Assembly (NCBI RefSeq): GCF_024172085.1
Contig: NZ_JAMZDZ010000001.1
Span: forward strand, 7,998,001-8,062,000
Direction: 5' to 3'
DNA from: Hamadaea flava
GTDB taxonomy: Bacteria > Actinomycetota > Actinomycetes > Mycobacteriales > Micromonosporaceae
Length of the DNA: 64,000 nucleotides
Shown here: in pieces, positions 44,727-64,000 of the stretch
Layout of the letters: each line of letters starts with the position of its first letter
Position numbering within the stretch: the stretch's first letter is position 1
Position numbers and translations under genes: made by a program
The notes under the pieces: model-generated
Told to the model about the DNA's origin: nothing
The model's database searches: none
What the model saw: the letters and a program-made list of their open reading frames with translations, nothing else

Positions 44727-44838
44727 CGAGAGACATTGATCGGATGACGGCTGTCACGAGCAGCCGATCCTCAGTGCGTTGTCGAACATGGACCGGGCGG
44801 CCCAGAACGCCGGCCCGGAGGCTGTCGGTGCCGGCGGC

Positions 44839-44844
44839 TATCCT
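44839..44844 (+). promoter_or_regulatory. -10 element of the WD40 gene
   Basis: TATCCT ends 7 nt before ATG 44852, with no ribosome-binding site, indicating a leaderless transcript. Confidence 0.5.
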
Positions 44845-60666: not shown

Positions 60667-62873
60667 TCCGGCTCGGTCTGCGCTTCGCCGTCGCCGGCGG
60701 CCGGGAAGCCGTGGTCCGGCTGATCACGATCGCCGCCGCCGTCGCGCTCGGGGTCGGCCTCGTGCTGGCCACGCTCGCCGCGATGAACGCCGTCCATTCG
60801 CTCAACCACCGGTACGCGTGGATGAACACCGGCCTCGCCCCGGCGACCGCCATCGACGCCGTGCACGCCGACCCGTTGTGGTGGGCCCCGCGCGAAGACT
60901 TCTACGACGCGGACTCCATCGCGCGGGTCGACGTCGCGGCGACCGGCCCCGACTCGCCGATCCCGCCGGGCCTGACCCGGCTGCCCACCGCCGGGGAGTA
61001 CTTCGTCTCCCCGAAGATGCACGACCTGCTCGCCAAAGCGCCGTCCGAGCTGCTCGGCGAGCGGTTCCCCGGCCACGAGGCCGGCATCATCGGCGACGCC
61101 GCGCTGCCGTCGCCCACCTCGCTCGTGATCATCATCGGGCATGATCCGGCCGAGGCCGCCAAGCTGCCGAACGCCCAGCAGGTCACCAGCATCTTCGGCA
61201 CCTCGCCGGAGGACTGCGCCAGCTGCATCGTCGGCTATCGGTCGGCCGGATTCGACCTCATCCTCGGCGTCGTCGCCGGAGCGCTGCTGTTCCCCGTGCT
61301 CATCTTCATCGGCACCGCGACCCGGCTCACCGCAGCCCGTCGGGAACAGCGGTACGCGGCCATGCGGCTGATCGGCGCGACGAGCGGGCAGATCTCGAAG
61401 ATGGCGGTCGTCGAGGCCGCTGTCGCCGCCGCCATCGGCACGCTCGTCGGCTTCGGCGTCTTCCTCGTCCTGCGAAGGCCGTTGGCGGCGATCCCCTTCA
61501 CCGGCGCCCCATTCTTTCCGGAGGACATGTCCCTGACGGTCGCCAACGTGTTGTGGGTGGCGGCGGGCGTACCGGCGGCGGCGCTCGTCGTGGCCTGGCT
61601 GTCGCTGCGTCGCGTACGCGTCTCGCCGTTGGGTGTGACGCGGCGGGTCACCCCGAAGCCGCCGCGGGCGTACCGGCTTATCCCGCTCGTGGCCGGCCTG
61701 GCCTGGCTCTACTACCTGAACGGCCACCGGCCCGACACCAGCATCAAGCAGGTCGCCGTGTTCCTGCCCGGCTTCCTCGTGGTCATGTCCGGACTGGTGC
61801 TCGCCGGACCCTGGCTGACCATGGTCGGCTCCCGGCTGCTGGCCCGTCGGGCGCAGCGACCGGCCACCCTGATCGCCGCCCGGCGGCTGTCGGACAATCC
61901 GCAAGCCGGCTTCCGGGCGGTCAGCGGACTTGTCCTCGCGATGTTCGTGACCAGCGTGGCGGTCGGTGCCATCGGCACTATCAAGGAGGACCGCGACGCG
62001 CTCGTGTACGGCTTCGAGAACGGCTACGTGCGGCAGCTGTTCTGGCCGGGACCCGGGCCCACCGGTACGCCGGCGGTGACTGATCAGCTCAAGACGATCG
62101 CCGGGGTGAGCGACGTGTTCTTCCTGCGCTCCAACCCCGGCTTCGGCCCGGATCAGCCCGGCAAGTATGGCGACCAGCCGTACGTGATCGCCTGCGCCGA
62201 CCTGGCCCGTCATCCTGAACTGGGCAGCTGTCCCGCCGGCGCCGAAGCGGTAGCGATATCCGACTTCGGAATTCCGAAGGGCATGCCGGTGCCGCCCTGG
62301 CCGGCGGCGGCGATCACCGCCGAGGAACTGGAGCGGCTGCCGATCGCCTCGATCCAGGTCGCCAACGACGGCTCCATCGGCGCGGTCGAACGGAGCCGGA
62401 CGCTGCTCGAAGCCGCGTTCACCGGTGTGCACCGCCCGATCGCCGATCGCGACTACACCAAGGACACGACGAACATGTTCACCGGCTGGGTGCAGCTGGC
62501 CAACGTGATCATCCTGGCCAGCCTGCCGATCGCCGGATGCAGCCTGGCCGCCAGCGTCGCCGGTGGCCTCAGCGACCGCAAGCGGCCCTTCAGCCTGCTG
62601 CGGCTGACCGGCGTCTCGCTGCGCACGCTTCGGCGGGTCGTGCTGCTGGAGAGCGTCCTGCCGATGATGGTGGTGGCTGTCGTGGCCATCGGCGTGGGGT
62701 TGCTGTCGGCCCAGCTGTTCCTGCGGGCGCAGATGCACACGACGCTCGTGCCGCCGGGCTGGGACTACTACGCCATGGTCGCGGTCGGCCTGGTCCTGTC
62801 GCTCGCGGTCATCGGCGGCACCCTGCCGTTGCTGCGCCGGATGACCGGCCCGGAGGTCGCACGCAACGAGTGA
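60663..62873 (+). CDS. FtsX-type ABC permease
   Basis: 736 aa. Membrane helices at about 20-42, about 200-220, 245-275, 285-310, 340-360, 420-445, then three more near 600-735. Two FtsX domains flank a large extracytoplasmic region (about 460-600), typical of the long, single-polypeptide MacB/YknZ-like permeases of actinobacteria. With the upstream ATPase it probably exports or removes lipophilic compounds or peptides from the membrane, perhaps antimicrobials. GTG 60663 overlaps the ATPase stop (GTGA). Confidence 0.9.
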   Translation: MIRLGLRFAVAGGREAVVRLITIAAAVALGVGLVLATLAAMNAVHSLNHRYAWMNTGLAPATAIDAVHADPLWWAPREDFYDADSIARVDVAATGPDSPIPPGLTRLPTAGEYFVSPKMHDLLAKAPSELLGERFPGHEAGIIGDAALPSPTSLVIIIGHDPAEAAKLPNAQQVTSIFGTSPEDCASCIVGYRSAGFDLILGVVAGALLFPVLIFIGTATRLTAARREQRYAAMRLIGATSGQISKMAVVEAAVAAAIGTLVGFGVFLVLRRPLAAIPFTGAPFFPEDMSLTVANVLWVAAGVPAAALVVAWLSLRRVRVSPLGVTRRVTPKPPRAYRLIPLVAGLAWLYYLNGHRPDTSIKQVAVFLPGFLVVMSGLVLAGPWLTMVGSRLLARRAQRPATLIAARRLSDNPQAGFRAVSGLVLAMFVTSVAVGAIGTIKEDRDALVYGFENGYVRQLFWPGPGPTGTPAVTDQLKTIAGVSDVFFLRSNPGFGPDQPGKYGDQPYVIACADLARHPELGSCPAGAEAVAISDFGIPKGMPVPPWPAAAITAEELERLPIASIQVANDGSIGAVERSRTLLEAAFTGVHRPIADRDYTKDTTNMFTGWVQLANVIILASLPIAGCSLAASVAGGLSDRKRPFSLLRLTGVSLRTLRRVVLLESVLPMMVVAVVAIGVGLLSAQLFLRAQMHTTLVPPGWDYYAMVAVGLVLSLAVIGGTLPLLRRMTGPEVARNE

Positions 62874-62919: not shown

Positions 62920-62935
62920 TCGAACAAATGTTCCC
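62920..62935. promoter_or_regulatory. Weak LexA (SOS) box
   Basis: TCGAAC-AAAT-GTTCCC matches the actinobacterial LexA box TCGAAC-N4-GTTCGA in 10 of 12 defined positions. It is 43 bp upstream of a better site. Confidence 0.5.
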
Positions 62936-62953
62936 GACACGCGGGACCAGCTC

Positions 62954-62982
62954 TTGACGGTGTCGTACCTGTGTTCGATAGT
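62954..62982 (+). promoter_or_regulatory. Consensus promoter with embedded LexA (SOS) box
   Basis: TTGACG (62954-62959), a 17-bp spacer and GATAGT (62977-62982) form a good housekeeping promoter. TCGTAC-CTGT-GTTCGA (62963-62978) matches 11 of 12 LexA-box positions and sits between the two elements, overlapping the -10. Only 6 nt separate the -10 from GTG 62989. Confidence 0.75.
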
Positions 62983-62988
62983 CGTCGG

Positions 62989-63294
62989 GTGGACACGGAA
63001 CGGGAATCGACCCCCTGGTCCGACGGCACCCGACGGGTGCGCCGCTGGATCGGCCGGGGCAAGCTGTCTGATGAGAAGATGACGATCACGCTGGGCGTCC
63101 TGCCCGACGGCCGCTGGTTCGTCGGCTCGGCCCAGGCGAGCTGGACCATGTGGCAGCCGTTCGACCGGGAGCAGGACGCGGTCGCCGTGGCCGAGCGTCT
63201 CGCGGCCGGCATGCGCGAAGCGCCGGTGCACCGCGAGCCGGCGGTGTATCGCTCGGTGGCGGCCGTCCCCGATTTGGTCGGAGTCGCAGCCTAG
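62989..63294 (+). CDS. 101-aa protein of unknown function, probably SOS-controlled
   Basis: 101 aa, soluble, basic N-terminal third (WSDGTRRVRRWIGRGK) and a central beta-rich part (TITLGVLPDGRWFVGSAQAS). No family is recognised. GTG 62989 is chosen because it lies 6 nt past the -10 of a promoter that carries a LexA box; GTG 62971 would lie inside the LexA box. The stop is 10 bp before the AlkZ-like gene, so the two are probably co-transcribed and expressed on DNA damage. Confidence 0.65.
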   Translation: MDTERESTPWSDGTRRVRRWIGRGKLSDEKMTITLGVLPDGRWFVGSAQASWTMWQPFDREQDAVAVAERLAAGMREAPVHREPAVYRSVAAVPDLVGVAA

Positions 63295-63297
63295 GCT
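63292..63297 (+). promoter_or_regulatory. -10 element overlapping the previous stop codon
   Basis: TAGGCT begins with the TAG stop of the 101-aa gene and ends 7 nt before GTG 63305. It could drive a leaderless transcript of the glycosylase gene alone. Confidence 0.45.
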
Positions 63298-63304
63298 GGA
63301 CCGG

Positions 63305-64000
63305 GTGATCATCACCTGGGACCGAGCATTCGCCTGGCGCATGCGCCGTCACCTGCTCGACCGTCCGGCTCGCGGCACCTCCGCCGTCGACGTCGCGCAT
63401 CGGCTCTGTGGCGTGCAGGCCCAGGTGGCCTCCAGCGCCGAGCAGGCGATCGCGGCCCGGCAGGCCACCGCGCCGGCCGGCCAGGTCGCCCAGGCGCTGC
63501 GGGACCGCAAGCTGGTGAAGACCTGGGCGATGCGGGGCACGCTGCACCTGCTGACCCCAGCCGACACTCCGGCCTTGCTGGCTCTGATGGCCGCGACCAA
63601 GACCTGGGAGAAACCGGTCTGGCAGCGCAACTTCGTTACCGCGGCCCAACTGGCCGCGATCACCGAGGCCGCCTGGACCGCCCTGGACGGCGCCGCCCTG
63701 ACCCGGGAGCAGCTCAGCCAGGCCGTCCTCGAGCGCAGCTCCGACCCCTCGCTCGCCGAGCATTTGGCATCCGGCTGGGGCGCGGTGCTCAAACCGCTGG
63801 CGTACCAGGGATTGCTCGTCTACGGGCCGAGCGACGGCAGCCGGGTCACCTTCACCCGGCCCGACACCTACCTCGACGGCTGGCCCGGCCTGCCCGACAC
63901 GGCTGAGGCTGCGCGCGTGGCCATCCCGGCCTACCTGGGTGCGTACGGTCCGGCCGCGCCCGAGGCATTCAATCAGTGGATCGCGCGCGGTGTGCTGCGC
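63305..64000 (+). CDS. AlkZ-like (HTH_42) DNA glycosylase, 3' end beyond the window
   Basis: The first 232 codons of a winged-helix DNA-binding protein of the HTH_42/AlkZ-YcaQ superfamily. CGVQAQVAS gives Q38-x-Q40, the QxQ catalytic motif of AlkZ-type interstrand-crosslink glycosylases; YcaQ/AlkX-type enzymes have QxD. LVKTWAMRGTLHLLTP follows, as in the family. AlkZ-like enzymes excise bulky alkyl adducts and crosslinked bases; some protect producers of DNA-alkylating antibiotics. GTG 63305 has TAGGCT 7 nt before it. The frame is open to the last base. Confidence 0.8.
   Translation, partial: MIITWDRAFAWRMRRHLLDRPARGTSAVDVAHRLCGVQAQVASSAEQAIAARQATAPAGQVAQALRDRKLVKTWAMRGTLHLLTPADTPALLALMAATKTWEKPVWQRNFVTAAQLAAITEAAWTALDGAALTREQLSQAVLERSSDPSLAEHLASGWGAVLKPLAYQGLLVYGPSDGSRVTFTRPDTYLDGWPGLPDTAEAARVAIPAYLGAYGPAAPEAFNQWIARGVLR

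Follow-up and report, generated by a model that had tools for sequence, protein, structure and literature searches.

The stretch of DNA analysed here, hereafter the window, comprises 64,000 nucleotides (bases 7998001-8062000) of the 8.86-Mb single-contig genome of Hamadaea flava. Our subject is the two-gene unit at its right end, in which a gene for a small protein of 101 amino acids (aa) precedes, by an intergenic gap of 10 base pairs (bp), the gene of an AlkZ-like DNA glycosylase. Two sets of candidate regulatory elements accompany the pair, one of LexA type at the outer promoter and another of PafBC type over the end of the first gene. In coordinates of the window, the features are as follows.

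62920..62935, + strand: upstream LexA-type box TCGAACAAATGTTCCC, agreeing at 10 of 12 positions and found at the same place in the related loci L011 and L057
62954..62982, + strand: promoter TTGACG-17-GATAGT, by direct reading, with both hexamers identical in three Hamadaea loci
62963..62978, + strand: main LexA-type box TCGTACCTGTGTTCGA, agreeing at 11 of 12 positions and lying mostly inside the -35/-10 interval
62989..63294, + strand: gene for the 101-aa protein, an open reading frame (ORF) with GTG start, probably leaderless, under purifying selection and with strong matches in 3 of 4 Hamadaea genomes
63275..63297, + strand: RecA-NDp/PafBC-type promoter motif TGGTCGGAGTCGCAGCCTAGGCT, agreeing at 10 of 12 positions and overlapping the stop codon of the 101-aa frame
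63305..64000, + strand, continuing past the window to 370 aa: AlkZ-like (HTH_42) DNA glycosylase with GTG start and Q38-A-Q40, assigned by PF06224 and the match to 5UUJ

The end of the window cuts the glycosylase ORF, but the genome holds it in full (L009:2306-3418, 370 aa), and the full protein matches PF06224 from position 3 to 327 of 329 (E 1.0e-46). Extension to the right, as the original prediction had proposed, thus places the C-terminal HTH_42 part beyond the window. The assignment to the HTH_42 glycosylases with a Q38-x-Q40 motif was likewise borne out, in that the QAQ of the Hamadaea enzyme aligns on the QAQ of AlkZ from Streptomyces sahachiroi (5UUJ) within a match of E 2.7e-92 and 159 identical residues in 356 (45%). 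In a quick tree of 103 proteins, from which 8 duplicates and proteins shorter than 320 aa had been removed, the azinomycin-resistance AlkZ falls inside the same large clade as the Hamadaea enzyme; branch support was by SH-aLRT only, long-branch warnings concerned mainly distant paralogues and the references were without a characterised YQL member. The AZL subfamily is distinguished by (Q/H)PhiQ and the YQL subfamily by QPhiD (PMC9040887). With an HTH_42 domain spanning the whole protein, a QPhiQ rather than a QPhiD motif and a grouping with AlkZ, the Hamadaea enzyme is placed in the AZL subfamily. E. coli YcaQ, a YQL member of the same HTH_42 family with a role in general repair outside antibiotic clusters, differs in carrying the QPhiD motif (PMC9040887) where the Hamadaea enzyme has QAQ. 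By sequence, the enzyme probably excises drug-damaged bases from DNA, and family membership suggests a role in crosslink repair.

The genome holds 11 PF06224 matches, the glycosylase among them and the weakest at the family cut-off. Members of the clade are patchily distributed, being found at a cut of 1e-90 and with few candidates scored in 25 of 200 genomes of the family, 18 of 397 of the order and 21 of 394 of the class, where absence means not found at that sensitivity. A RecA-NDp-like match (10 of 12) also stands 30 bases ahead of the predicted start of another HTH_42 paralogue (L005; genome 1111426-1112442), and damage control may thus extend to more than one of the paralogues.

The outer promoter was found as it had been described, with the -35 hexamer at 62954-62959, a spacer of 17 bp at 62960-62976 and the -10 hexamer at 62977-62982. 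The same is true of the LexA-type box between the promoter elements and of the weaker box 43 bp upstream of it, the latter fitting without mismatch the Bacillus-type LexA consensus CGAACRNRYGTTYC (with up to one mismatch, 2 matches in the window vs 1.44 expected). The GTG at 62989 lies 7 bases past the last -10 base, where transcription would be expected to start. A single box is unremarkable, since 0.23 boxes with up to one mismatch are expected per window and at least one occurs in 21 of 100 shuffles, and single boxes prove nothing because they are too common in the genome (951 sites at one mismatch or fewer over the 14-mer vs 217 for the reversed control). Of 2000 first-order Markov windows, 3 contain two boxes of this quality (11 and 10 of 12) no more than 60 bp apart, a figure that is optimistic because the real window is richer in boxes than the simulations (11 boxes of 10 or more vs a mean of 2.9). 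The main argument for the LexA boxes as functional elements is their conservation across the three Hamadaea loci that carry the gene pair, namely that of the window genome, L011 (Hamadaea sp. Bin2.24) and L057: both boxes, both hexamers, the spacing and the start codon are kept, and nearly all letters are the same.

Comparable boxes stand at SOS genes of the same genome. It encodes lexA, the box of which agrees at 10 of 12 positions and has the same TCGTAC half as the main box (the scan of lexA loci ignored strand, and the + strand row of the window genome was used alone); one dinB and a gene run with an ImuB-like match each have a box of 11 of 12. The S. venezuelae LexA consensus is tCGAAC-N4-GNNCGa, and the validated dnaE2-1 box of that organism starts TCGTAC (PMC9380542). 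The locus thus resembles the actinobacterial LexA regulon in box sequence, in promoter position and in the company of boxed SOS genes; it differs in that Table 1 of PMC9380542 names no AlkZ-like gene.

A second candidate regulatory element, overlooked in the original prediction, lies over the stop codon of the 101-aa frame and ends 7 bases before the start codon of the glycosylase. The RecA-independent motif reads TTGTCRGTG-N8-TANNNT and was scored over 12 positions; its 9-position core, scored as TGTC[AG][GC]-N10-TANNNT, gives 8 of 9 in the window, 9 of 9 in L011 and 8 of 9 in L057. An upstream scan of the clade revealed motif hits clustering at set distances from the glycosylase start codons. 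Among 86 clade rows, 14 score at least 10 of 12 in the 90 bases preceding the start, vs 0 of 201 other genes on the fetched loci (Fisher p 2e-8, a value too good because the clade rows are related); a perfect core is present in 10 of 86 vs 0 of 201 and a core of at least 8 in 29 of 86 vs 6 of 201, the 86 rows being those left without rows below 400 bits, 8 duplicates and rows with fewer than 90 upstream bases. With close duplicates kept (93 rows above 400 bits, one duplicate removed), scores of at least 10 occur in 15 of 93 rows, whereas upstream control stretches reach them in 1 of 1488 cases and shuffles in 4 of 4650. Cores of 8 or 9, present in 29 of 85 tree rows, require at least 9 changes on the tree, and in 14 of these 29 rows 6 to 8 bases separate the motif from the start codon, which is the leaderless distance.

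The genome encodes pafB and pafC, recognised by WYL/WCX and HTH_PafC hits in genes that follow one of the Pup-ligase family, and recA is preceded by a perfect 9-position core. With up to one mismatch the motif has 47 sites in the genome vs 12 for the reversed control; 16 of the 47 were inspected, and genes for a UvrD-type helicase, a uracil-DNA glycosylase and a PolX-type protein start 6-9 bases after it. The likeness to the mycobacterial PafBC regulon, the core of which is TGTCGG-N10-TA-N3-T in the RecA-NDp promoters (PMC8151990), extends to these PafBC genes. PafBC is activated by single-stranded DNA and recruits RNA polymerase to a motif at -26 (PMC11804915); the motif centre at the Hamadaea glycosylase is near -26 from the start codon. 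Among the inspected sites (L217-L246), RecA-NDp motifs also stand at leaderless distance before several genes without clear function, which provide a candidate list for a PafBC regulon. Elsewhere in the window, at 44822-44844, the RecA-NDp pattern recurs with one mismatch as CTGTCGGTGCCGGCGGCTATCCT.

From these promoter elements, we consider it probable, with a fair margin of doubt, that the locus encodes a damage-inducible glycosylase in a two-gene repair unit, with LexA repressing it jointly with the small gene and PafBC providing a further means of activation. In undamaged cells, LexA bound to both boxes would block the outer promoter; upon damage, RecA would trigger LexA cleavage and both genes would be transcribed as a leaderless mRNA. 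Independently, single-stranded DNA would activate PafBC, and RNA polymerase brought to the inner promoter would raise the glycosylase alone. The enzyme would then excise N7-alkylpurine adducts of the bulky or crosslinking kind, and base excision repair would process the abasic sites left behind.

Were LexA alone to matter, the pair would be one SOS operon and the inner motif a by-product of conserved coding sequence. The LexA promoter would indeed suffice for two genes 10 bp apart, and the window motif, with its two mismatches, sits in the last codons and the stop of the 101-aa frame. Yet related glycosylase genes without a 101-aa gene are preceded by the motif too, at an equal, leaderless distance, and the 101-aa protein itself varies among the three species at residues about 80-96, with insertions and deletions, while residues 97-100 are kept. 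We regard control by LexA alone as unlikely. The original prediction of LexA control of an AlkZ-type enzyme is retained in part: LexA-type boxes do stand before a QxQ glycosylase gene, but with a PafBC-type motif directly before it this gene could be expressed independently of the LexA promoter. Taken as a whole, the regulatory side of that prediction emerges stronger than proposed and the small partner weaker.

Several observations weigh against dual control of the glycosylase. On the LexA side, box quality tracks SOS genes imperfectly, given that recA of the window genome lacks a LexA box of 10 or more and, in the stretches fetched, two further IMS-family genes likewise have no box of at least 10 immediately upstream. 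A LexA box within 520 bp is, moreover, present in just 14 of 85 clade rows, and the boxes of Nocardia and Actinomycetospora may serve the divergent dinB or alkB alone. On the PafBC side, the inner motif has 2 mismatches to the 12-position consensus, a quality expected by chance 1.81 times per window and seen 3 times; because it overlaps the end of the reading frame, its conservation could be due in part to constraint on the protein; a core of 8 of 9 is reached by no more of the clade than the 29 of 86 rows given above, and by 6 of 201 controls too; and the Actinoplanes, Micromonospora and azinomycin-AlkZ subclades contain no row that reaches it.

The 101-aa protein is real, as judged from a dN/dS of about 0.11-0.13 (purifying selection), and as unrecognised as had been claimed, its best hits reaching no better than E 0.11 in Pfam and PHROGs, with none in NCBIfam or PADLOC. 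No relatives were found in plasmid, phage or viral collections, and fold searches with a model of the protein returned weak matches, with the WGR domain among the families considered. The original prediction had it as a possible accessory factor of the glycosylase, and a dedicated two-component repair module could be envisaged, in which the protein binds damaged DNA or the glycosylase itself and so assists the enzyme. The gene pattern in the four Hamadaea genomes, of which 3 have both genes adjacent and one (G061) has neither at the cuts used, speaks for a local partnership. A general accessory role is not supported by the 96 clade loci (rows of 250 bits or more), in which the gene adjoins that of the glycosylase in 3, all Hamadaea. 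In the class, a match was obtained in 1 of 394 genomes, which is the window's own, at the limited sensitivity of 13 first-look candidates scored per genome among the rows listed. A dedicated module is, in our assessment, quite unlikely; the likeliest reading of the 101-aa protein is that of a lineage-specific product, induced in the SOS response and encoded at the head of the operon. Two weak matches in the family genome G017 share a DGxWxV...F..E.DA..VA core; no repair gene was recognised within the 3 kb viewed around them, and Pfam on short pieces of both gave nothing. A weak match in a further family genome, G057, lies inside a longer protein and was set aside as apparently spurious.

Gene neighbourhoods across the clade repeatedly involve damage-response genes. 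In 7 of 96 loci an acylphosphatase gene stands beside the glycosylase gene with alkB across a LexA box, and in 11 of 96 an opposite-strand dinB lies upstream, directly divergent in some and up to about 3.7 kb off in others. A LexA box within 520 bp, in the 14 of 85 rows already noted, implies at least 3 changes on the tree, the manual score for L207 being 'no LexA box', since the single box there is poor. This repeated company supports the damage-response reading, even if the box belongs to the neighbour alone. The Nocardia boxes ACGAACATATGTTCGC were considered as LexA control of the glycosylase gene and rejected: in the 8 loci examined they lie at the start of the opposite-strand dinB (Pfam on one), and so are counted as neighbourhood. 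The Actinomycetospora box, between divergent alkB and the acylphosphatase-glycosylase genes, is ambiguous in its target. The arrangement with acylphosphatase between LexA box and glycosylase gene and alkB divergent is seen at L029, L034, L041, L045, L053, L054 and L214; some of the Nocardia loci L030-L050 have a penicillinase-repressor-type gene between dinB and the glycosylase gene.

At the Hamadaea locus itself, a gene for an FtsX-type ABC permease (Pfam), ending at 62873, lies directly upstream of the boxed promoter, and a convergent 2-phosphosulpholactate phosphatase gene follows the glycosylase gene in the sequence beyond the window, so the unit is two genes long. The usual role of AlkZ-like genes in Streptomyces, self-resistance to a locally made genotoxin, would accord with the permease gene and with the presence of the azinomycin AlkZ in the same clade. 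Most AZL genes of Streptomyces lie inside or close to biosynthetic clusters, the mean distance to the nearest being about 2.3 kb (PMC9040887). Against this stands the absence from the window list (filtered by codon composition) of any ORF above 1065 aa, and in the 20 kb beyond one very large ORF occurs alone, of RHS/SpvB type. By ORF size, no biosynthetic ORF of polyketide synthase or non-ribosomal peptide synthetase dimensions was seen in the 64 kb plus 20 kb, with Pfam applied to 13 neighbouring ORFs (7 in the window, 6 beyond). AlkZ sits in an antibiotic cluster and protects the producer, whereas the Hamadaea gene has LexA-/PafBC-type promoter elements and no cluster was seen around it. We regard a self-resistance function as very improbable and prefer damage-inducible repair for this locus.

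Our analysis has importance in suggesting that AlkZ-type enzymes can serve the general damage response, beyond the self-protection of antibiotic makers. The published types are constitutive, as with E. coli YcaQ, and self-resistance, common in antibiotic clusters, as with AlkZ; a QPhiQ enzyme outside a visible cluster and under LexA-/PafBC-type signals would represent a third mode, that of inducible genotoxin defence. E. coli ycaQ is not induced by the crosslinker mechlorethamine or by methyl methanesulfonate (PMC7367128), and that source is alone, in the literature searched, in naming AlkZ, the SOS response and LexA together, doing so as this negative result. The main text of PMC9040887 contains neither 'LexA' nor 'SOS'. 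As a difference from the known PafBC regulon, AlkZ appears together with PafBC in no paper of the literature searched, with synonyms (winged-helix proteins in regulon tables) and supplements outside the search, and novelty is claimed against these searches alone. The promoter elements provide a rule for finding such enzymes, and the origin of self-resistance use from a damage-response gene becomes testable. Tentatively, and as a proposition that we still hold somewhat doubtful, AlkZ-type crosslink glycosylases may constitute a hidden arm of the response of actinobacteria to DNA damage. Control of PafBC type would then be of early origin and common throughout the clade, repeated gains would account for the LexA box or the SOS neighbour (own promoter, alkB, dinB) and self-resistance in antibiotic clusters would be derived, the Hamadaea enzyme being under both alarms via two leaderless promoters, the inner one within the end of an SOS-induced small gene.

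Lastly, a 2342-aa ORF with FG-GAP/RHS/SpvB-type Pfam matches (L251:3781-10806; genome 8065780-8072805) lies ~3.4 kb past the glycosylase gene.
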